Assembly (NCBI RefSeq): GCF_041154745.1
Contig: NZ_AP031573.1
Coordinates: 620,001-684,000 of the forward strand
Direction of reading: 5' to 3'
Length of the DNA stretch: 64,000 nt
From: Flavobacterium sp. CFS9
Lineage (GTDB): Bacteria > Bacteroidota > Bacteroidia > Flavobacteriales > Flavobacteriaceae
Below the pieces are notes generated by a model. That model saw only the letters and a program-made list of their open reading frames with translations, had not been told where the DNA came from and searched no databases. Made by a program: the position numbers and the translations under genes. Shown one piece after another: positions 3,767-49,625 of this stretch; within the stretch, counting starts at the first letter, position 1; each line of letters begins with the position of its first letter.

Positions 3767-3884
3767 TTAACCGCAAAGCGCGCAAAGAATTTATTTCTAA
3801 GAAGCTTTAAATATGCAAAGTTCGCAAAGCTTTGTGTAAAAACTTTGCGAACTTTGCGTAAATCATTGTGTTCTTTGCGGTTAA
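3767..3884. repeat. Palindromic intergenic repeat built from GCAAAGNNN units
   Basis: The segment opens with TTAACCGCAAAG and closes with CTTTGCGGTTAA. Inside are GCAAAG units spaced 9 bp apart (GCAAAGCGCGCAAAG, GCAAAGTTCGCAAAG) on the left arm and their complements (CTTTGCGAACTTTGCG) on the right arm, so the whole element can fold into a long hairpin. A second copy of the family lies at 49531-49625. The element sits between a terminator and the convergent yaaA gene. No coding potential is apparent. Confidence 0.75.
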
Positions 3885-3887
3885 AAG

Positions 3888-3923
3888 CCTAAGTATCTTA
3901 GCATCTTAGTCCCTTAGAACCTT
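3888..3923. repeat. CTTAG-type period-8 repeat, single arm
   Basis: A run of CTTAG motifs spaced 8 bp apart (CTTAGCATCTTAGTCCCTTAG) abuts the GCAAAG palindrome and ends just before the yaaA stop codon. It belongs to the same family as the repeats at 13121-13206, 20091-20131, 20541-20582 and 30691-30932. Confidence 0.7.
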
Positions 3924-3932
3924 TAAAAAAAC

Positions 3933-4691
3933 CTATCTCGTAAAAACCAGATGATTTCCCTTCGAAAGATTACCATCAAACTGATAACCTTCATAATTAA
4001 ATCCTTTTAAGTCCTCTATCGTTTCGGCGTTGGTATCAATAATATAACGCACCATCATCCCTCTTGCTTTTTTGGCAAAGAAACTAATCATTTTGAGTTT
4101 CCCATCCTTGTAATCTTTAAAATCCGGTGTGATTACAGGAACTTTTAGAGCTTTTACATCTACAGCTGAGAAGTACTCATTACTTGCTAAATTCACAAAC
4201 AACTCTCCTTTAGACAATTCTTTATTTAGTGCTTTCGTTACGGTTGGTTTCCAAAATTCGTGTAGGTTTTTATACTCCTCTACCGGTAATTTTGTACCCA
4301 TTTCTAAACGGTAAGCCTGCATTAAATCTAATGGTTTCAAAACCCCATAAAGTCCTGACAGAATTCGGAGTTTACTTTGAAGAACGTCCAGTTTTTCTAC
4401 CGGAATGGTATAAGCATCCAGACCTGTATAAACGTCTCCATCAAAAGTATAGACCGCCGGACGGGCGTTTTCAGGTGTAAATGGAGTTTTCCACTCCTGA
4501 TTTCTTTTCCAGTTCAAGTCTGATAATTTAGCTGAAATTGACATTAATTCAGACAACTCAGCAGGTTTTTTAGTCTTTAAGATTTTATGAACCACACGTG
4601 CTTCTTTTAAAAAATGAGGTTCTGTATATTGAGTAGTAGGTAATTCTTTCTCGAAATTCAATGACTTTGCAGGCGATATAACAATTTTCAT
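3933..4691 (-). CDS. yaaA: YaaA-family peroxide stress protein
   Basis: Member of the YaaA (DUF328/UPF0246) family. The E. coli member limits free intracellular iron and protects DNA and proteins during hydrogen peroxide stress. The start is placed at the ATG that begins 'MKIVISPAKSLNFEKELP', giving 252 residues, the normal family length; the reading frame is open 33 codons further upstream but that extension does not resemble the family. Conserved features include the N-terminal ISPAK motif, 'RILSGLYGVLKPLDLMQAYRLEMG' split over about residues 105-130, and the 'VNLASNEYF' segment. It is monocistronic, convergent with the efflux operon and flanked on both sides by palindromic repeats. Confidence 0.92.
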   Translation of the reverse strand: MKIVISPAKSLNFEKELPTTQYTEPHFLKEARVVHKILKTKKPAELSELMSISAKLSDLNWKRNQEWKTPFTPENARPAVYTFDGDVYTGLDAYTIPVEKLDVLQSKLRILSGLYGVLKPLDLMQAYRLEMGTKLPVEEYKNLHEFWKPTVTKALNKELSKGELFVNLASNEYFSAVDVKALKVPVITPDFKDYKDGKLKMISFFAKKARGMMVRYIIDTNAETIEDLKGFNYEGYQFDGNLSKGNHLVFTR

Positions 4692-4783
4692 GTGTACATT
4701 TTTATATACTCCAAAAATACAAATTGAATTTCTAAAAATAGGAGATCCTAATTGATTTGTTTTATTGAGGTATAGTTTTTTTT

Positions 4784-4862
4784 GCCACAAATTACACGAA
4801 TTCCCACTAATTTCTTTTTAAAAAATCCCAAGAGATTCGTGAAAATTCATGCATTTTGTGGC
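4784..4862. repeat. Imperfect palindrome of the GCCACGAATT family
   Basis: The element starts GCCACAAATTACACGAATT and ends with the near-complement GATTCGTG...TTTTGTGGC, with CAC.AATT units about 9 bp apart. A cleaner copy of the same family is at 30735-30784. It lies between yaaA and the CCA-adding enzyme gene, which point away from each other. Confidence 0.6.
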
Positions 4863-4954
4863 AGTCAATTTTACTTTGATAAAAATAGATGCTCTAAACT
4901 GTGAATTTATTCAAAAAAGTGACCCTTAGATTATAAAAGGCATTTTCTATGTTG

Positions 4955-8736: not shown

Positions 8737-9105
8737 TTACTTCCATTTATTTTTATTTTCAGCCTCTTTCTCCATTATTTTTTGAATTTTCTTTTGCTCC
8801 CAATCTCTATTGAAAAAAACATCAGGGCCAAAAACAGAAATTCCATGAATCACTAAAGCAATTCCCCAAAAAAATGCAGTCGAGTAAATTTCCCAGTCAT
8901 TAAATCCCCTAATTACAAAGTCACCGCTAACATAAGGTTTATTCAGACTTGAAATAATGATGATAATATTCACCATAATATAAACTCTCAAATGCGAATA
9001 AAAACCTTTAATTCGTTTTACTTTTTTGTATGCTAAATTGAAACTTTCATCTGTACTAAACTCATGTGAATAATCTTCGTACATCTGTCTTCTAAACTGT
9101 CCCAT
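8737..9105 (-). CDS. 2TM-domain membrane protein (copy 5 of the array)
   Basis: Small integral membrane protein, 122 residues, of the 2TM family (two transmembrane helices joined by a short loop; function unknown). It has a basic N-terminus, 'STDESFNLAYKKVKRIKGFY' leading into helix 1, helix 2 around 'FFWGIALVIHGISVFG', and the family's C-terminal 'DWEQKKIQKIMEKE' amphipathic tail. It closely resembles the neighbour at 9124-9495. It sits between that gene and the LytTR regulator, 37 bp upstream of the regulator start, and looks like part of one operon. Confidence 0.85.
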   Translation of the reverse strand: MGQFRRQMYEDYSHEFSTDESFNLAYKKVKRIKGFYSHLRVYIMVNIIIIISSLNKPYVSGDFVIRGFNDWEIYSTAFFWGIALVIHGISVFGPDVFFNRDWEQKKIQKIMEKEAENKNKWK

Positions 9106-9123
9106 ATTATTTTAATTTAAAAA

Positions 9124-9495
9124 TTATTGCCATTTTGTGTTATTGTTCTGAGCATCTCTCTCCATATATTTTTGGATCTTTTTTTGCTCCCATTCCCTGC
9201 TGAAAAAAATGTCAGGGCCGAATACCGTAAAAGCGTGAATAACTAAAGCTATTCCCCAAAATATCGCTGTCGAATAGGTACGCCAGTCTAACAATTCGTT
9301 TTCAGAAACACTATGACTGAAATAATCCCGGTTTAAATTAGAAACTATAATGATTACGTTTACAATCAAATACACTTTTAAATGTGTATAAAAACCTTTT
9401 ATCTTTTTTACTTTTCTATAGGCTAAATTGTAGCTTTCGTCTGTACTAATTTCATCTCTGAAAGCTTCATACCTGTCTCTTCTATATCGTCCCAT
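9124..9495 (-). CDS. 2TM-domain membrane protein (copy 4 of the array)
   Basis: Paralogue of the gene at 8737-9105 (123 residues), with the same basic N-terminus (MGRYRRDRYEAF), 'STDESYNLAYRKVKKIKGFY', two hydrophobic helices and the 'FGPDIFFSREWEQKKIQKYM' tail. The pair share the long N-terminal extension and the GPD.FF motif that the shorter copies lack, suggesting a recent duplication within the array. Function unknown; the context is a LytS/LytTR signalling operon. Confidence 0.85.
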   Translation of the reverse strand: MGRYRRDRYEAFRDEISTDESYNLAYRKVKKIKGFYTHLKVYLIVNVIIIVSNLNRDYFSHSVSENELLDWRTYSTAIFWGIALVIHAFTVFGPDIFFSREWEQKKIQKYMERDAQNNNTKWQ

Positions 9496-9505
9496 TTCAC
9501 TATAA

Positions 9506-9811
9506 TTATTGCCATTTATTTTTATTCTCTCTCTCCTTTTCCATCAGTTCTTTAATCTTTTTCTCTTCCCAGTCTTTTCCGAGAACCGGAAATACTTTAA
9601 AGACTTTCAAACCGTGAAAAACTACTCCAATTCCCCACCACATTAAAGGCCAGTAAAACCATAAATACCTTGGTGATGTATAGAGATTGATAAAAATCAG
9701 AACAAGATTTACAATAACATATGCCGTTAAATTGCCATAGAATCCTTTGATTTCCTTCACTCTCTTTTTTGCAAGGTAATATTTATCCTCTTCATTCAAA
9801 TTTACTTCCAT
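9506..9811 (-). CDS. 2TM-domain membrane protein (copy 3 of the array)
   Basis: Short 2TM protein, 101 residues from the ATG that gives 'MEVNLNEEDKYYLAKKRVKE'. An in-frame ATG four codons upstream (9823) overlaps the preceding stop codon; I prefer the downstream one because its N-terminus matches the METN/METS starts of related copies. Conserved features are 'AKKRVKEIKGFYGNL', a Trp-rich loop 'YLWFYWPLMWWGIGVVFHGL' and the tail 'DWEEKKIKELMEKE'. It is tightly coupled to the upstream copy. Confidence 0.85.
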   Translation of the reverse strand: MEVNLNEEDKYYLAKKRVKEIKGFYGNLTAYVIVNLVLIFINLYTSPRYLWFYWPLMWWGIGVVFHGLKVFKVFPVLGKDWEEKKIKELMEKERENKNKWQ

Positions 9812-9813
9812 GA

Positions 9814-10143
9814 TTACTCCCATTTTTGTTTTTTTTCTTTTTTCTCTAAGATGCTCTTCATTTTACGCTCTTCCCACTCTTCTCCAAAAATTTTAAGAGA
9901 AGCAAATATATCTATCGCCGATACCACAAAAGCAGTTGTCCAGATACACATGACAAATCCGTTCAGATATTGTACAGGAAAAATATTAAGCGGAAGTCCA
10001 AAATAATCTTTTAAAATATAAAGTATAAGACCAGCAACATAGAAAATCACATGGGTATAAAAAGCCTTTAACTTTACAACCTTTTTGCTCGCTATCTTTT
10101 GAAGTTCGAAATCTTCCTGTTCTCTATTAAAATTAGTTTCCAT
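9814..10143 (-). CDS. 2TM-domain membrane protein (copy 2 of the array)
   Basis: 109-residue 2TM protein beginning METNFNREQEDFELQ. It overlaps the end of the upstream copy by 11 bp, which indicates translational coupling. It is the most diverged of the set: the motif before helix 1 reads 'ASKKVVKLKAFYTHV' and helix 2 lacks the conserved WG.G..IHG core, but the C-terminal 'EEWEERKMKSILEKKE' tail is typical. Function unknown. Confidence 0.8.
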   Translation of the reverse strand: METNFNREQEDFELQKIASKKVVKLKAFYTHVIFYVAGLILYILKDYFGLPLNIFPVQYLNGFVMCIWTTAFVVSAIDIFASLKIFGEEWEERKMKSILEKKEKKQKWE

Positions 10144-10447
10144 AATTATGATCAGATTTGCCGGTTCTTTCTTTTTCTAAAATTTCTTTGATTTTTCTCT
10201 CTTCCCAGTCTTTACTAAAAAAAGGCGGAATATTAAACACTGTCAGCCCATGAATCACTACTCCAACTCCCCAACCCAAAACACACCAGACAAACCATAA
10301 GTAACCGGGAGAAGTTATAAGATTTACGGCTATCACAATAATGTTTACCATAATAAAAACTGCCAAATGCTCGTAAAACTCTCTAATTTCTTTTACTTTT
10401 TTCTTAGCCTGATAAAAACGTTCTGCTTCTATAAAATCCTTTTCCAT
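10133..10447 (-). CDS. 2TM-domain membrane protein (copy 1 of the array)
   Basis: 104-residue 2TM protein. The start is the ATG giving 'MEKDFIEAERFYQAKKKVKE', two bases after the kinase stop codon; a longer in-frame reading into the kinase gene is unlikely because it would overlap it out of frame. It shows 'AKKKVKEIREFYEHL', helix 1 'VFIMVNIIVIAVNL', helix 2 'WGVGVVIHGLTVF' and the tail 'DWEERKIKEILEKE'. It resembles the 2TM domain fused to the C-terminus of the kinase encoded just upstream. Confidence 0.87.
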   Translation of the reverse strand: MEKDFIEAERFYQAKKKVKEIREFYEHLAVFIMVNIIVIAVNLITSPGYLWFVWCVLGWGVGVVIHGLTVFNIPPFFSKDWEERKIKEILEKERTGKSDHNYGN

Positions 10448-10449
10448 GG

Positions 10450-11808
10450 CTATTTCCAGTTTTTTTGTTTGTTTTCGCGTTCCAAAATCTCTCTTATTTT
10501 TCGTTCTTCCCAATCTGAGCTGTACCCAAACACTTTAAAAGCATGCATGACAACTCCAAACCCCCAGCCTAAAGCCGAGAACCAAAACCATTGAAATCCA
10601 GGAGAGTACCTCAAATTTATAAAAATTAAAAATGGTACCACACAACAATATGAAATTACGTTACCGTAAAAACCTTTCAGTTCCTCTACTCTTTTCTTCG
10701 CTCTGAAATAAGCTTTATTCTCATCACTATATTCTGCACTTGTTTCCATAACTGTAATTTGTTTGGTTAAAATTGGAATTTTAACGGTGAAATTTTCTTC
10801 GTTTTGTTCAATCAGAACCTTTCTGTTGGTTACAATTGAATATCGGTTCACAATGTTCTGCAATCCTACTCCCTGCCTGTCCTGTAAAACTTCTTTTTTC
10901 TGAAAATCATTTTGTATCGCCAGATAATCTCCATCCACAAAAATCCTGATATGCAACGGTTTTTGCTCGCTGACGATATTGTGTTTTACCGTATTCTCCA
11001 GTAAAAGCTGTAAGGATAACGGAACTACTTTTGCCTCGGGATTAATATTTGTCGTTGGTAATTCATAAAACAAACTGTTCTCGAATCGCATTTTTAGCAA
11101 ATTCATATAGGTTTTAGCAAACGACAGTTCATCTTCAACAGAAACTAACTCTTTATCCTTCTGCTCTAAAACATAACGGTATATTTTAGACAATGAGGTT
11201 GTAAATCGTTGTGCATTATCCGGATTTTCTTCGATTAGTGAACTAAGAACGTTTAAACTGTTAAAAAGGAAATGCGGGTCTATTTGATTTTTTAAACTTT
11301 CGAATTTAGCATTTGCCGTTCCTGCAATAATTTTTTGCTGTGTTACTTCAAATTTGGAAGCCTGTTTCCACTTCACCATAAAGCTTCGGGCCTGCATGAA
11401 AGTTGAAACTCCGAGAGACAGAATCACATAAAAAAGGTGAGCCCAAATCATCCTTTCACTAAAAAACTGATCCGGCGGAAGATGCTGAACAAATACGCAA
11501 ACAACATAATTGATTCCCAAAACAACCGGAACGGTATACAATATGGTAATCAAAATTCCGTAGTACACTCGTAGATTGGTTTGTTCCAGCCAATCCCACT
11601 TTTTATCTAAAAGAACGTTGATAAATCCGTTGCCAAAGCCCAATCCAAAAGAGTAAAGACAGCTAATCCCGAAGGTCAGCAATACATTTTCAACATTTAA
11701 ATCGGTACCCAAAAAGGCGCAGAATAAAATGGTAAAGACCATAGAAATCTTGAAACACATAATGGTTCCACTTTTTAAATCGGCAAATGAGTTTCTATGA
11801 TCTTTCAT
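10450..11808 (-). CDS. LytS-type sensor histidine kinase with C-terminal 2TM domain
   Basis: Membrane sensor kinase, 452 residues, that probably phosphorylates the LytTR regulator at 7932. The N-terminal half has about four transmembrane helices (roughly 15-145). A His_kinase module follows, with the phospho-accepting H179 in 'QIDPHFLFNSLNVLSS', an N-box 'LLLENTVKHNI' (N272) and a short ATPase region with 'GVGLQNIVNRY'. After residue 353 comes a complete 2TM domain (residues 354-452, 'AKKRVEELKGFYGNV' to 'DWEERKIREILERE') that is colinear with the five free-standing 2TM proteins downstream and starts exactly with a methionine. Internal initiation at that codon (10749) could make a sixth separate 2TM protein. 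Confidence 0.92.
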   Translation of the reverse strand: MKDHRNSFADLKSGTIMCFKISMVFTILFCAFLGTDLNVENVLLTFGISCLYSFGLGFGNGFINVLLDKKWDWLEQTNLRVYYGILITILYTVPVVLGINYVVCVFVQHLPPDQFFSERMIWAHLFYVILSLGVSTFMQARSFMVKWKQASKFEVTQQKIIAGTANAKFESLKNQIDPHFLFNSLNVLSSLIEENPDNAQRFTTSLSKIYRYVLEQKDKELVSVEDELSFAKTYMNLLKMRFENSLFYELPTTNINPEAKVVPLSLQLLLENTVKHNIVSEQKPLHIRIFVDGDYLAIQNDFQKKEVLQDRQGVGLQNIVNRYSIVTNRKVLIEQNEENFTVKIPILTKQITVMETSAEYSDENKAYFRAKKRVEELKGFYGNVISYCCVVPFLIFINLRYSPGFQWFWFSALGWGFGVVMHAFKVFGYSSDWEERKIREILERENKQKNWK

Positions 11809-13000: not shown

Positions 13001-13120
13001 TCCGTAAACCTTTGTATCTCTGTTCCTTTTAATTTACACTTCAAAAGTATATCGGATTTTATTCTTTTAAAATTAAATGATACCGAGTTGTTGATTTTGG
13101 TGACTGAATTGTTTTTTTTT

Positions 13121-13206
13121 GAGGTACTGAGGTTCTGAGTTGCTAAGGTGCTAAGTTTTATTCTGAATAGCTTAACATCTTAGTTTCTTAGAACCTTAGC
13201 GACTTA
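13121..13206. repeat. Complete period-8 CTAAGNNN palindrome
   Basis: The left arm reads CTGAGGTTCTGAGTTGCTAA and continues GGTGCTAAG, i.e. four CTRAG motifs exactly 8 bp apart. After a 15-bp AT-rich loop the right arm has the complement, CTTAACATCTTAGTTTCTTA followed by GAACCTTAG, also with 8-bp spacing. The arms pair imperfectly over about 35 bp. The right arm overlaps the TonB-receptor stop codon at 13204-13206, so the element forms the 3' end of that gene and could act as a transcript end or processing site. Confidence 0.75.
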
Positions 13207-15363
13207 CAAATTCTTTAACTGATTCTCATTCTTATTCTGACTAATCGTCCAAAAGAAACCTACGAAGAAAAAGCGATCTGCAGTTGGTATAATGGCTTGT
13301 CTGTTATAAACTCCATTGGCATCTGGATTTCTGGCGTAATCGTATCCAAAAACATTTTGAGTTCCCAATACATTCGAAACAGAGAAATACAGGATTTTTT
13401 GAGTAGTTAATAAATAAGCCCAGTTGAAGCTCAAACTATTATACGCTTTTGTTCTTCCATTCATGAACTGAGTCTGGTTCGGATCATTGTACGGACGTCC
13501 GGAACTGAAACTGTTCGTAAAGCCAATTTGAGATTTCCAATCGGTAATAAAATATTTTGTTACGACAGACAGGGTATGATGAGCCACAAAACTAGGAGTT
13601 ACCATCGCCGGGAAATTCTTGTACTGTCTCTCTGAATCGATATAGGAATAAGAAATCCAGTATTCCAGGTTTTTATGCAGATTGCTGTCTCTCCAAAACA
13701 AATCCAATCCTTTTGCATACCCCGAACCGTTGTTGTTGAAAACCGAATTGTACTGAATATCTCTCGTATTGTACTGTACTAAATTGCTGTAATCTTTGTA
13801 GTAAGCCTCTGCTCTAAAAGTTTGTCCCGGTTTTGTAAACTGATAATTTAAGATATAATGTCTCGCTTTTTCACTTTCAAACTGGTGGTATTTGGAGTAT
13901 TTAATATAATCAACTACCGGTGTTTGTGTAAAGTCTCCATAAGCAAATGAAAACTGACTGGTTTTTGAAATTTTATAAGCCAGCGAAGCTCTTGGGGCAA
14001 TATTGGTTTCGTTTAGCAAGCTGTTATTCGAAAGTCTGAAACCTACTTTTGCAGCCAGTTTTTTCGAGAATAAAATGTCTCCTTCCGTATAAAAAGCGGC
14101 AATGTTAGAATTGTAACCGTTTGCTGTGTTTATAGTGCTATTGTCCGTATAATTTTCATTAAACTTTGTGATGAAATAATCGGCTCCAAATGACAATTTG
14201 AAATAATTCGAGATGTTTTTTCTCAATTTCAATTTTAGCTGTGCCGCATTTTCGTTATTGTCTACATCATTAATATCAAATTTGATTTTGTTTTTGCTGT
14301 ACCCGTAACTAATTCCTGATGTCAACTGCCAGCCTGTTCCGAAATCTCCCTTGTAAGATGCATTCAGATAAAAGTTATTGTTGTCCAGATCAGTTCGGAT
14401 AGGATTAGCAAAATTGACATTTTTCTGATTCAAATCGAATTTCTCTGCATCAAAAGCAGCGTAGAATTTAAAAATTCCTCTCTCAAAATTATAGCGATAT
14501 ACGGCCTCACCACCCAAAGACTGATACGGATTATTCCAATCCACGTTCTGCGGAATTACAGCCTGGTAAGGTGCCAGATTAATATAATTGGTATTGATAC
14601 TGAACGAGCTTTTTTTCCATTTTTGGGTATTCCCTACTCCCAAACCTACAGTCATTAAAGCAATATCGGTTTTATTCTGATCCGGTTCATCCTGAGTGTT
14701 TAGCAACAAAACACTTGATAGAGCTTCACCATATTCGGCAGAATATCCTCCGGTTGAAAACGCAATTCCGCTAAACAAAAACGGAGAGAATCGGCTTCGG
14801 GTGGGCAAATTATTAGTCGTTGCACCATAAGGCTGTGCGACACGAAGTCCGTCGACAAAAGTTTGTGTTTCGCTTGCCTCGCCTCCACGAACAAATAAAC
14901 GTCCATCTTCGCCAACGCTTTGTGTCCCCGGTAAAGTTTGCAAAGCTGCAATAATATTTCCGGCTGATCCGGCTGTGGTTACAATATCCAGAGGTTTTAA
15001 GACTGAAACTCTTGCTTTATCCCCTGATTCTAATGTCCCCGCGGTAATAACAACGGCATCAAGTGCATTTACGTTCTCTCTTAGTTTTACCGTTTGATCT
15101 TTATAATTGGCAACGTCTATTTCCTGTTTGAAAGTTTCGAAAAGCAAAAAACTCACCACCAAAAATTTATTTCCTTTTTCGCTGGTTTCGAATGAAAAGC
15201 TGCCGTCTTCAGAACTTGTAGCTCCGTCATAAGTTCCGTCTATGTAAATATTAGCGCCCTGAACCGGTTTTCCTTTTTGATCAACCACTTTTCCTGAAAT
15301 CGTATTCTGGGCAAAAGTAAAAATGGTAAATAATAATAAAATAAGAGTAATTTTGGTTTTCAT
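13204..15363 (-). CDS. TonB-dependent receptor with carboxypeptidase-regulatory-like N-domain
   Basis: Outer-membrane active transporter, 719 residues. The signal peptide is 'MKTKITLILLLFTIFTFAQ'. Next comes a CarboxypepD_reg-like domain ('ISGKVVDQKGKPVQGANIYI', about 22-100), a plug domain ('RVSVLKPLDIVTTAGSAGNI', then 'LFVRGGEASETQTFVDGLRV', about 120-220) and a 22-strand-type beta barrel ending 'RFFFVGFFWTISQNKNENQLKNL'. It is much shorter than SusC-type receptors (about 1000 residues) and has no SusD partner, so glycan import is not implied. It heads the minus-strand cluster leading to the LytS/LytTR genes, with a 300-bp repeat-rich gap before DUF2141. Confidence 0.93.
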   Translation of the reverse strand: MKTKITLILLLFTIFTFAQNTISGKVVDQKGKPVQGANIYIDGTYDGATSSEDGSFSFETSEKGNKFLVVSFLLFETFKQEIDVANYKDQTVKLRENVNALDAVVITAGTLESGDKARVSVLKPLDIVTTAGSAGNIIAALQTLPGTQSVGEDGRLFVRGGEASETQTFVDGLRVAQPYGATTNNLPTRSRFSPFLFSGIAFSTGGYSAEYGEALSSVLLLNTQDEPDQNKTDIALMTVGLGVGNTQKWKKSSFSINTNYINLAPYQAVIPQNVDWNNPYQSLGGEAVYRYNFERGIFKFYAAFDAEKFDLNQKNVNFANPIRTDLDNNNFYLNASYKGDFGTGWQLTSGISYGYSKNKIKFDINDVDNNENAAQLKLKLRKNISNYFKLSFGADYFITKFNENYTDNSTINTANGYNSNIAAFYTEGDILFSKKLAAKVGFRLSNNSLLNETNIAPRASLAYKISKTSQFSFAYGDFTQTPVVDYIKYSKYHQFESEKARHYILNYQFTKPGQTFRAEAYYKDYSNLVQYNTRDIQYNSVFNNNGSGYAKGLDLFWRDSNLHKNLEYWISYSYIDSERQYKNFPAMVTPSFVAHHTLSVVTKYFITDWKSQIGFTNSFSSGRPYNDPNQTQFMNGRTKAYNSLSFNWAYLLTTQKILYFSVSNVLGTQNVFGYDYARNPDANGVYNRQAIIPTADRFFFVGFFWTISQNKNENQLKNL

Positions 15364-19547: not shown

Positions 19548-20087
19548 ATGGTTTATAAATTTAGAGTAATTCTAGACGCCGAAGAAGATATTTTTAGAGA
19601 CATTGCTATTCTTGAAGACGATACTCTTGAGGATTTACACAATGCGATCTTCAACGCTTTTGGTTTTGACGGAATGGAAGTGGCTTCGTTTTATACCTGT
19701 GATGAAACCTGGAATCAGAAAGATGAGATTCCGCTTTTTGACACTGGTGACGTGCCTGGTGAGCAAAGAACGATGGGCGATTATCCGTTATCTTCTATTT
19801 TAGACGAACAAAATACCAAAATTATCTATGTATATGATTTCATCAATATGTGGACATTCTTAGTTGAATTAGCTGCTATTGAAGATCAAATCGCGGGAGC
19901 TACATATCCTGAAACACTATTCTCACATGGAGAAATGCCGGACGAAGCTACCGAAAAGAACTTTGAAGCCGACATGCACGACGATATTTACGGAGAATTT
20001 GAAGACGATCTTGACGAAGATGATCTTGACATGTTCGAAGGCGACGACAGCTTTGAAGATTACGGATTTGAGGAGAATTGGAATTAG
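19548..20087 (+). CDS. pRiA4b ORF-3-like protein with acidic tail
   Basis: 179-residue protein of the plasmid pRiA4b ORF-3 family (also labelled IS1096 TnpR passenger). It opens 'MVYKFRVILDAEEDIFRDI' and has the typical 'TLEDLHNAIFNAFGFDGMEV' helix and 'IIYVYDFINMWTFLVELAAI'. After about residue 140 the tail is extremely acidic, with runs of Asp/Glu and aromatic residues. Despite the family names no transposase or plasmid gene is nearby and the gene looks like normal Bacteroidota core content. Function unknown. Confidence 0.85.
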   Translation: MVYKFRVILDAEEDIFRDIAILEDDTLEDLHNAIFNAFGFDGMEVASFYTCDETWNQKDEIPLFDTGDVPGEQRTMGDYPLSSILDEQNTKIIYVYDFINMWTFLVELAAIEDQIAGATYPETLFSHGEMPDEATEKNFEADMHDDIYGEFEDDLDEDDLDMFEGDDSFEDYGFEENWN

Positions 20088-20090
20088 TTC

Positions 20091-20131
20091 GTAAGTACTA
20101 AGCTCCTTAGATGCTAAGATACTAAGTTTTT
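20091..20131. repeat. Left arm of inverted period-8 repeats flanking the four-helix-bundle gene
   Basis: The arm has CTAAG-type units about 8 bp apart (ACTAAGCTCCTTAGATGCTA, then AGATACTAAGTTTTT). Its inner end GATACTAAGTTTTT is nearly the complement of the start of the right arm at 20541. It begins 3 bp after the preceding stop codon. Confidence 0.75.
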
Positions 20132-20181
20132 ATATTTGAGGCATTTTTCTTACTTTTATAATTTATTTTAAAAGCAAGATA

Positions 20182-20541
20182 ATGAGTCATTTTAGAAAAA
20201 TTTTAGTTTGGCAAAAATCAATTTCCTTAGTTACCAAAATTTACAAAGTAACAAATAGGTTTCCAAAAGAAGAAATGTTTGGATTAACTTCGCAAATACG
20301 TCGGAGTTCAATTTCCGTTCCGAGCAATATTGCAGAAGGATCAGGTAGAGAAAGTACTAAAGAATTTTTGCGATTTTTATTTATTTCTCTAGGTTCTCTA
20401 TTTGAAATGCAGACTCAGCTTGAAATTGCAAAAAATATAATTTACATAAACGAAGAAGAATTTAACCTTTTATACGAGGACAGTCGAGAGATTGAAAGGA
20501 TGTTAGCGTCGTTAATTAAAAAATTAAAAGACAATAATTGA
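20182..20541 (+). CDS. Four-helix-bundle protein (23S rRNA intervening-sequence type)
   Basis: 119-residue protein of the four-helix-bundle/S23 family first found inside intervening sequences of 23S rRNA genes and structurally related to Avd of diversity-generating retroelements. Family motifs are 'LVWQKSISLVTKIYKVTNRF', 'EMFGLTSQIRRSSISVPSNI', 'AEGSGRESTKEFLRFLFISL' and 'GSLFEMQTQLEIAKNI'. The protein is basic and is expected to bind nucleic acid. There is no rRNA gene here. The gene is bracketed by inverted copies of the CTAAGNNN repeat and interrupts the space between two unrelated genes, so it looks like cargo of a palindromic element. Confidence 0.9.
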   Translation: MSHFRKILVWQKSISLVTKIYKVTNRFPKEEMFGLTSQIRRSSISVPSNIAEGSGRESTKEFLRFLFISLGSLFEMQTQLEIAKNIIYINEEEFNLLYEDSREIERMLASLIKKLKDNN

Positions 20542-20582
20542 AAAACTTAGAATCTTAGAAACTTAGAATCTCAGCAACTCAA
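20541..20582. repeat. Right arm of inverted period-8 repeats flanking the four-helix-bundle gene
   Basis: The arm reads AAAAACTTAGAATCTTAGAA and continues ACTTAGAATCTCAGCAACTC, four CTTAG-type units 8 bp apart. It begins on the last base of the four-helix-bundle stop codon and ends 4 bp before the next start codon. It is inverted relative to the arm at 20091-20131. Confidence 0.75.
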
Positions 20583-20585
20583 AAT

Positions 20586-21644
20586 ATGATCAACTTATTC
20601 AACACCCACATCGATACGCTTGCGATACACCGCGTAGGAAACAAAAGCAGAAACGAAGCGATTTTTTTATCAGAACAACCATTTAATTTAAATGATGAAA
20701 TTGTTCCTTTGATCAAAGAGTACTTCTTTAAGCCTTTCAGAGAGAAAGAAGAAAACTATTATCAGTTTGCGCACGAAGTGGATCTGGACTACAACGACAT
20801 GTTTAAATATGCGACAGAAATTTTTAGCAACCCTGGGAATTTACATGAGGTTTCGAAAAAAATCACGACGCACTTATTCGAACAATCCAATCACCCGCAC
20901 ATTAAAAACGGAGAGGTTTACATCACGTACCTAACCAACCTGAGTATCGATAATAATGTCGTAGATGCGATCGGAATCTTTAAAAGCGAGTTACAAGCCG
21001 ACTTTTTACAATTTGAAGAAAAAGGGAGCAATCTTGAAATGATCCTTCAACAAGGTATCAACTTAAGCAAATTAGACAAAGGATGTTTGATTTTCAACTA
21101 TAAAAAAGAAGAAGGATACAAAATCCTAACCGTTGACAGCAACCGTTATGACGCTCGCTACTGGTTAGAGCACTTTTTATCCGTTGATGCTTTTGAAGAT
21201 GAAAACTTCATCACTAAAAAATACTTAAAATTCTGTCAGAACTTCGCCAAAGATGTAGTTTTACCGGCAGAAGACAAAAAAGAAGAAGTAATGTTCATGA
21301 ACCGATCTGTGAATTACTTCGCGAAAAACGATCAGTTTGAAGAACAAAATTTCTTAAACGAAGTACTGGACAATCCTGAATTAATTCCTGAATTCAAAAA
21401 CTATAAAGTAGATAAAGGAGAAAAATACAGCATCGAAGATGTAACCTCATTCCCTATTGCCAACGCAGCAGTTTCAGACGCCAGAAAATCAATCAAAAAC
21501 GTGATTAATCTGGACACTCACATTCAGATCAAAATGGATTTTATCAATCCGGAAAGTGCTGAAAAATTTGTTGAAAAAGGCTGGGATGAAGAAAAACAAA
21601 TGTATTACTACTTAGTGTATTTCAATAAAGAAGAGAAAAGCTAA
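20586..21644 (+). CDS. Nucleoid-associated protein (NdpA/YejK family)
   Basis: 352-residue protein of the 37-kDa nucleoid-associated family. The start 'MINLFNTHIDTLAIHRVGNK' and the features 'LKEYFFKPFREK'-like segment at about 45, 'NHPHIKNGEVYITYLTNL', 'LDKGCLIFNYKKEEGYKI' and 'YWLEHFLSVDAFEDENF' match the family. Such proteins associate with bulk nucleoid DNA; their precise function is unclear. It begins 4 bp after the right arm of the inverted repeats and is followed by a good terminator. Confidence 0.9.
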   Translation: MINLFNTHIDTLAIHRVGNKSRNEAIFLSEQPFNLNDEIVPLIKEYFFKPFREKEENYYQFAHEVDLDYNDMFKYATEIFSNPGNLHEVSKKITTHLFEQSNHPHIKNGEVYITYLTNLSIDNNVVDAIGIFKSELQADFLQFEEKGSNLEMILQQGINLSKLDKGCLIFNYKKEEGYKILTVDSNRYDARYWLEHFLSVDAFEDENFITKKYLKFCQNFAKDVVLPAEDKKEEVMFMNRSVNYFAKNDQFEEQNFLNEVLDNPELIPEFKNYKVDKGEKYSIEDVTSFPIANAAVSDARKSIKNVINLDTHIQIKMDFINPESAEKFVEKGWDEEKQMYYYLVYFNKEEKS

Positions 21645-30690: not shown

Positions 30691-30932
30691 GGAGGTTCTG
30701 AGATGCTGAGTTACTAAGATTCTAAGTTTTTTTTGCCACGAATTCACGAATGATTTTGTAATTTAAAATTCGTGAATTCGTGGCTAACTTTTTATTTTAA
30801 AGGTACTGAGTTAATAAGGTTCTAAGATCCTAAGCTTTCTTTCTCAGTATTCAAAAATGATACGGTAAACTAAAATTTGCGAATTCGTGGCAAAAAACCT
30901 TAGAGCCTCAGCTCCTCAGTACCTTAGTCCCT
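30691..30932. repeat. Composite nested palindromic repeat region
   Basis: This 242-bp intergenic block contains CTAAG period-8 arms at 30691-30731 and 30800-30838 (left-type) and a CTTAG/CTCAG arm at 30897-30932 (right-type). A different palindrome, 30735-30784, is nested between them, with perfect 17-bp arms GCCACGAATTCACGAAT / ATTCGTGAATTCGTGGC and a 16-bp loop. A further half-copy of that palindrome (GCGAATTCGTGGC) is at 30879-30891. The structure suggests successive insertion of small palindromic elements. No coding frame is evident. Confidence 0.75.
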
Positions 30933-49530: not shown

Positions 49531-49625
49531 TAACCGTAATGAACGCTAAGATTTACGCAAAGTTCGCAAGCTAATACACAGCTTTGCGAACTTTGCGTTT
49601 TTTTCTTTGTACTCCTTGCGGTTAA
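49531..49625. repeat. Palindromic intergenic repeat built from GCAAAG units (second copy)
   Basis: The element opens TAACCG and closes CGGTTA, with ACGCAAAGTTCGCAAGCT on the left and AGCTTTGCGAACTTTGCG on the right. It is the same family and organisation as 3767-3884. It follows the amidase stop by 16 bp. Confidence 0.75.

Follow-up and report, generated by a model that had tools for sequence, protein, structure and literature searches.

A small four-helix-bundle (FHB) gene lies between two protein-coding genes of Flavobacterium sp. CFS9, enclosed by inverted arms that repeat a short word, in the 64,000-nucleotide stretch analysed here (contig NZ_AP031573.1, positions 620,001 to 684,000; hereafter the window, whose own coordinates are used throughout). 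The locus has the following layout.

19548..20087, + strand: upstream neighbour, PRiA4_ORF3 family (PF07929)
20091..20126, + strand: left arm, words GTAAG, CTAAG, CTTAG, CTAAG, CTAAG, mostly 8 bp apart
20182..20541, + strand: FHB gene (23S_rRNA_IVP / TIGR02436), 119 aa, between the arms, from its open reading frame (ORF) and profile match
20546..20582, - strand: right arm, words TTGAG, CTGAG, CTAAG, CTAAG, CTAAG (read on the - strand)
20586..21644, + strand: downstream neighbour, NA37 nucleoid-associated family (PF04245)

A preliminary description of this stretch had placed the protein in the four-helix-bundle family of 23S rRNA intervening sequences (IVSs), and profile scores bear this out: it matches PF05635 at 140.9 bits (cut-off 33.8) and the TIGR02436 four-helix-bundle model at 140.2 (cut-off 24). 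The tight inverted period-8 arms described there are also present. Both consist of five CTRAG words at about 8 bp, the outermost word being degenerate, and they match each other with a score of 15.5 (p 0.005, 200 dinucleotide shuffles). The left arm starts 3 bp past the upstream stop codon, and the right arm stops 3 bp short of the downstream ATG, a gap previously given as 4 bp.

Inverted arms accompany FHB genes in general. We combined all PF05635 places in 12 single-contig Flavobacterium genomes with the five of our own genome (one of which carries a stop), giving 94 loci in 13 complete genomes, and compared the best local match between 200 bp upstream and the reverse complement of 200 bp downstream with 200 dinucleotide shuffles. 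These shuffles replaced an earlier null of mismatched flanks (4/35 above its 95% point), which was dropped because shared motifs inflate it. Arms were found at p ≤ 0.05 in 81/94 FHB loci and at p ≤ 0.01 in 74/94, with a median z of 7.3, compared with 10/81 at p ≤ 0.05 (one of them an FHB gene) and a median z of 0.34 for control genes of 90-220 aa from our own genome. Each of the five FHB places there has its own inverted short-period arms (p 0.005 to 0.025), the word differing between places. The PF05635 family is present in 146/149 congeneric genomes.

The pattern extends well beyond the genus. A scan of a genome collection returned at least 587 FHB relatives, and the best 80 loci were tested for arms, here with single-base shuffles, as were the arm-likeness comparison, the Y1 flanks and the cyanobacterial arms described below. 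Arms at p ≤ 0.05 flank 57/71 of these loci from outside Flavobacterium and 6/9 from within it, and armed FHB genes span Acidobacteria, Planctomycetes, Clostridia, Campylobacteraceae, Anaerolineae, Ignavibacteria, Verrucomicrobia, Nitrospirae, KSB1 and others. Among 134 arms with a clear period (5-11 allowed), the period is 7 in 93, 8 in 32, 9 in 7 and 6 in 2; at periods 7 and 8 the median arm spans 4.5-5.2 units. The preliminary description had held that homologues lacking arms would speak against its proposal; arms are instead the rule in Flavobacterium and beyond.

Our own genome is rich in periodic palindromes built on many different words, and one might suppose that slippage makes such low-complexity intergenic repeats and that FHB genes lie among them by chance. 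However, the rarity of arms at control genes, the usual five-word length, the inward pairing of arrays and the match between word and protein (see below) all argue against this. The slippage reading is already disfavoured, and we give it almost no credence.

CTRAG arrays also occur away from the gene. We found 74 in the own-genome stretches examined (6 in the reversed-sequence control), and CTAAGNNNCTAAGNNNCTAAG has 56 matches in the 5.37 Mb genome, overlapping ones counted, versus 2 for the reversed pattern. The profile of 68 arrays has five RAG peaks 8 bp apart, four RYK-CT links and T-rich sequence on both sides. Counting the degenerate outer word, 52/74 arrays have exactly five words and 12/74 have four; the 92 arms that flank FHB genes at the orthologous site have five words in 51 cases and four in 26. 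Where two arrays are neighbours within 200 bp, 18 pairs are inward-facing, 7 have both arrays pointing in one direction and none is outward-facing; inward pairs hold 36/74 arrays. From the outer word to the gene edge (ORF calls) the median distance is 11 bp. The window holds these further arrays.

3889..3917, - strand: single CTRAG array at a gene edge
13119..13155, + strand: left arm of a gene-less pair, five words
13171..13207, - strand: right arm of that pair, five words, 15-bp loop
30698..30726, + strand: CTRAG array of four full words beside a nested CACGAATT palindrome
30806..30834, + strand: left arm of a second gene-less pair
30899..30927, - strand: right arm of the second pair, 64-bp loop

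The CACGAATT palindromes of the window lie at 4783-4863 and 30729-30897, the second nested beside CTRAG arrays. Several relatives have CACGAATT-like palindromes inside the same arms, and genome G045 has a terminator-like hairpin.

The gene-less palindrome that had been reported elsewhere in the window is thus real (13119-13207, 5 + 5 words). Two interpretations attached to such copies were not supported. Spacer letters between the arms of the 18 gene-less pairs agree at 85/216 positions versus 88.6 expected by chance, which speaks against hairpin pairing as the conserved feature of the CTRAG family. Because the spacers are unmatched between arms, recognition by a protein is likelier than hairpin pairing. 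Nor do gene-less copies look like simple deletion derivatives of gene-bearing ones, akin to miniature inverted-repeat transposable elements: their loops are mutually unrelated, several with a terminator-like hairpin by eye, and a tblastn search of the nine loops of at least 40 bp with four own FHB proteins gave no convincing remnant (chance-level hits, E 0.32 and 5.1).

The placement of arrays could point to regulation at the RNA level. Where the outer gene (ORF call) points at an array, the array lies a median 7 bp past its stop (41 arrays), and spaces between divergent genes look avoided (3/65 array contexts vs 34/217 spaces). FHB rings might bind transcript arms at gene ends, in the manner of TRAP, the trp RNA-binding attenuation protein, and protect 3' ends or tune termination, with nothing moving; arrays would then be domesticated binding sites, and the flanking of FHB genes would be autoregulation. 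The terminator-like hairpins in several loops fit this reading, as does an arm that stays at a gene edge while its interior changes. However, 28 arrays sit at the start of the gene next to them and antisense to it, autoregulation needs no two inverted arms around most FHB genes in many phyla, and sites in relatives are empty or carry a swapped word type. We regard an RNA-level regulator as unlikely.

The history of individual sites shows both stability and turnover. Every one of the 120/120 pairs formed by 16 CTRAG-type FHB loci has a neighbour gene in common. Of the 92 congeneric genomes that lack a close homologue, 30 were read by eye at the window site, and 23 of these have no recognised array there; empty sites, for which a search of related genomes had been proposed, thus exist. 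The same survey found a broken FHB relic (G001), an FHB of another subfamily that has other arms (G126, G053), a gene-less palindrome of another word (G124, G101) and a single or partial array (G102, G109), and short inverted repeats in G063, G138 and G142 were left unclassified. The preliminary view of a mobile or formerly mobile element is therefore upheld in part: empty or swapped sites in relatives agree with it, but the shared neighbours speak against free mobility today. The 13119-13207 pair was compared in six relatives (flank identity 75-97%): four have it at the same place but with different spacers and loops, G046 has a CARAG pair instead, and G052 lacks it. At 3780-3960, genome G133 keeps the array at the gene edge, while the interior or neighbouring palindrome has changed. 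Thus, content turns over, but the words at gene edges stay.

Which word the arms carry goes with the protein. FHB genes orthologous to that of the window site occur in many species (in most rows with the same neighbours, by eye), with CTRAG arms in some and CARAG arms in others. On a tree of 53 FHB proteins, including members from Aquimarina, Confluentibacter, KSB1, Nitrospirae, Desulfobacteraceae and Elusimicrobia that were labelled CARAG by eye, this difference needs 2 changes (17.6 in shuffles), and the 30 CT proteins are completely separated from the 23 CA proteins by positions 86 and 109. Arm type tracks the CARAG share of the genome (41 genomes; rho 0.65, medians 0.53 and 0.26). Additionally, the median CTRAG count is 102 where a homologue reaches 57% identity or more (57 genomes) and 0 in the other 92; among genomes of up to 4.7 Mb it is 9 with such a homologue (27 genomes) versus 0 without (90 genomes). 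Counts of the AGTCNNN word are 7-26 in six carriers and 0-10 in seven non-carriers. When FHB pairs with at least one locus from outside Flavobacterium are compared, arms are alike in 47% of 30 pairs at 60% identity or more, in 9% of 80 pairs at 55-60%, and in 0.6-3% lower down.

That FHB clade predicts word would be unexpected if Y1 (RAYT/IS200-like) transposases moved the palindromes and the FHB gene were a passenger. Y1_Tnp does occur in 13/13 complete genomes, but CTRAG word pairs lie within 250 bp at 0/20 fetched Y1 loci (of 50 places), so we rejected Y1 mobilisation of CTRAG arrays. Moreover, 13/20 Y1 loci are themselves flanked by inverted sequence (z above 4), by eye mostly short self-complementary hairpins. 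The passenger reading is very unlikely.

A retroelement of the Avd type, in which the FHB protein works with a reverse transcriptase (RT) encoded elsewhere and arrays spread by RNA copying, is in our judgement no likelier. The FHB fold matches Avd and a chain of complexes from diversity-generating retroelements (DGRs), and the protein has a sub-threshold bAvd match (31.9 bits vs 40). However, neither FHB neighbour is an RT, and RVT_1 was not found in 5/13 complete genomes, four of which have CTRAG counts of 148-355 and one 27; an RT partner was rejected on this ground.

The solved relatives 2gsc and 2rld have five chains each, and S23/Avd-type assemblies have been described as pentamers. Five subunits in a ring, set against five words, point to one word for each protomer. 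The reading we prefer, to which we give an even chance of being right, is that the FHB protein recognises, by their word, both its own arms and the gene-less arrays of that word, and that an Avd-like pentamer is the basis of a REPIN/RAYT-like system (REPINs being pairs of repetitive extragenic palindromic, REP, sequences). The protein would form a ring of five protomers, each taking one word (CTRAG here), with the 3-nt spacers running free. One 37-nt arm, most likely single-stranded RNA or DNA, would wrap one ring, a model taken from the binding of (G/U)AG repeats to TRAP; a single strand is favoured because periods 7 and 8 are ill-suited to one face of a double helix. The complete unit would comprise the FHB gene and two arms. 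Scattered arrays, of which about half lie in inward pairs, would be dependents maintained and spread by the unit, as REPINs are by RAYTs, and cutting would be left to host enzymes or another partner.

Several observations weigh against this recogniser. The domain search of the window protein found no nuclease domain, only PF05635 and the sub-threshold bAvd match, and the FHB gene is inherited at a fixed site by descent and is not hopping now. Four-word arms are common (26/92), some arrays have 6-11 words, 38/74 arrays are unpaired, and palindrome words outnumber FHB genes in our own genome (by eye). CTRAG counts reach 20 or more in 13/92 non-carrier genomes and stay below 20 in 15/57 carriers. 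The GTTGATGG word occurs almost only beside its own FHB gene, with almost no dispersed copies; thus, scattered dependents are not universal among FHBs. The correlations between word and genome ignore kinship, CT/CA amounting to at most two events, and across phyla arm likeness correlates only weakly with protein identity overall (rho 0.03; 0.10 outside Flavobacterium, p 0.014). In Nostocales, only 5/11 plasmid FHB genes have clear arms on both sides. Finally, binding, the one-word-per-protomer rule, single-strandedness and movement are what we infer.

The same architecture may bear on the short tandemly repeated repetitive (STRR) sequences of filamentous cyanobacteria. Heptanucleotide arms are clear around 8/14 fetched cyanobacterial plasmid FHB genes, and in four others heptamer repeats were seen (by eye) upstream but not downstream. 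In a 49.9-kb stretch of a Nostoc plasmid there are nine period-7 arrays (two of them FHB arms), three of period 8, one of period 11 and none of period 5, 6, 9 or 10, with some gene-less inverted pairs by eye; judged from sequence, these arrays fit the description of STRRs. On plasmids of Anabaena sp. 90 and Pseudanabaena galeata (L366, L367), an FHB gene with heptanucleotide arms lies between cas6 and cas4.

More broadly, PF05635 proteins may be five-subunit readers of five-word arms with clade-specific words, forming with their dependents an element class apart from transposase-based repeats. This could explain STRRs, the periodic palindromes of Flavobacterium and possibly rRNA IVSs, and we hold it tentatively, at somewhat less than an even chance. 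Among the literature matches listed, no title or abstract start links FHB or S23 genes to periodic arms or STRRs, a scope outside which papers under subscription mostly fall. The proposal offers a role that can be tested for a common family of proteins whose function is unknown, and it ties this family to two old puzzles, the rRNA IVS proteins and the cyanobacterial STRR repeats. It entails a simple modular code of five protomers and five words, whose specificity could be decoded if true. There would then be a second REPIN-like route by which bacterial genomes fill with short palindromes, via a non-transposase protein.

Other repeats and genes were seen in passing. CGCAAAGTTCGCAAAG palindromes (window 3812-3860 and 49555-49598) are a further periodic word family to which no FHB gene of our own genome is assigned, and TGTCATTTCGAC palindromes recur as another repeat family (L007 2545-2682, L015 16782-16912). 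GTTTCAG-type palindromes are frequent in our own genome (L022 4954-5093, L008 19734-19816, L024 19617-19693); none of the five own FHB genes carries this word, but L105 of G087 does, so these palindromes may stem from an FHB gene that has since been lost. Window 8737-11808 (- strand) holds a series of small related ORFs, where 9124-9495 encodes a 2TM-domain protein and the last ORF looks fused to a histidine-kinase-like ORF (by eye).

These features can be set beside known systems. STRRs are usually 7-bp repeats able to form hairpins and of unknown function (a passage in PMC2670836, which links no protein to them). FHB genes on Nostoc, Calothrix and Anabaena plasmids have 7-bp arrays as arms, a likeness to published STRRs drawn by description only, whereas the window arms have period 8. 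DGR Avd shares its fold with the FHB protein, but no RT lies beside the gene, and the protein falls short of both the NCBIfam Avd model (25.2 bits vs 80) and the Pfam bAvd cut-off. TRAP is an unrelated protein. The proposed FHB ring would resemble it in reading tandem short words with free spacers, but would differ in having five words, period 7-8, inverted pairs and many word variants; TRAP has 11 subunits and 11 (G/U)AG repeats (a passage in PMC4027176).

The S23p ORF of 23S rRNA IVSs belongs to the same family and likewise lies inside a unit bordered by inverted repeats. In contrast, the window FHB gene stands between two protein genes rather than inside 23S rRNA, its arms are word arrays, and gene-less relatives are many; compared with the IVS stem, arms of the window type are inverted, but the spacers of the 18 gene-less pairs match no better than chance. 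The function and origin of IVSs remain unclear, according to a passage in PMC4990558.

REPIN-RAYT systems differ in their defining Y1/HUH enzyme, in place of which the FHB protein has PF05635 and the sub-threshold bAvd match, and in their self-complementary hairpins, whereas each FHB arm strings about five words in tandem and lacks spacer pairing. Many of the Y1 genes fetched from these same genomes (L260-L279) have REP-like hairpins themselves, several with a GGTAG tag, and REP/RAYT systems seem to coexist with that of the FHB genes. RAYT genes lie at stable sites, with inverted repeat flanks and a repeat type that follows the protein type. FHB loci share with REPIN-RAYT systems the inverted cognate repeats on both sides of a gene whose site is stable, the dispersed gene-less inverted pairs, and vertical inheritance at a fixed site, here in all 120 pairs of the 16 CTRAG loci.
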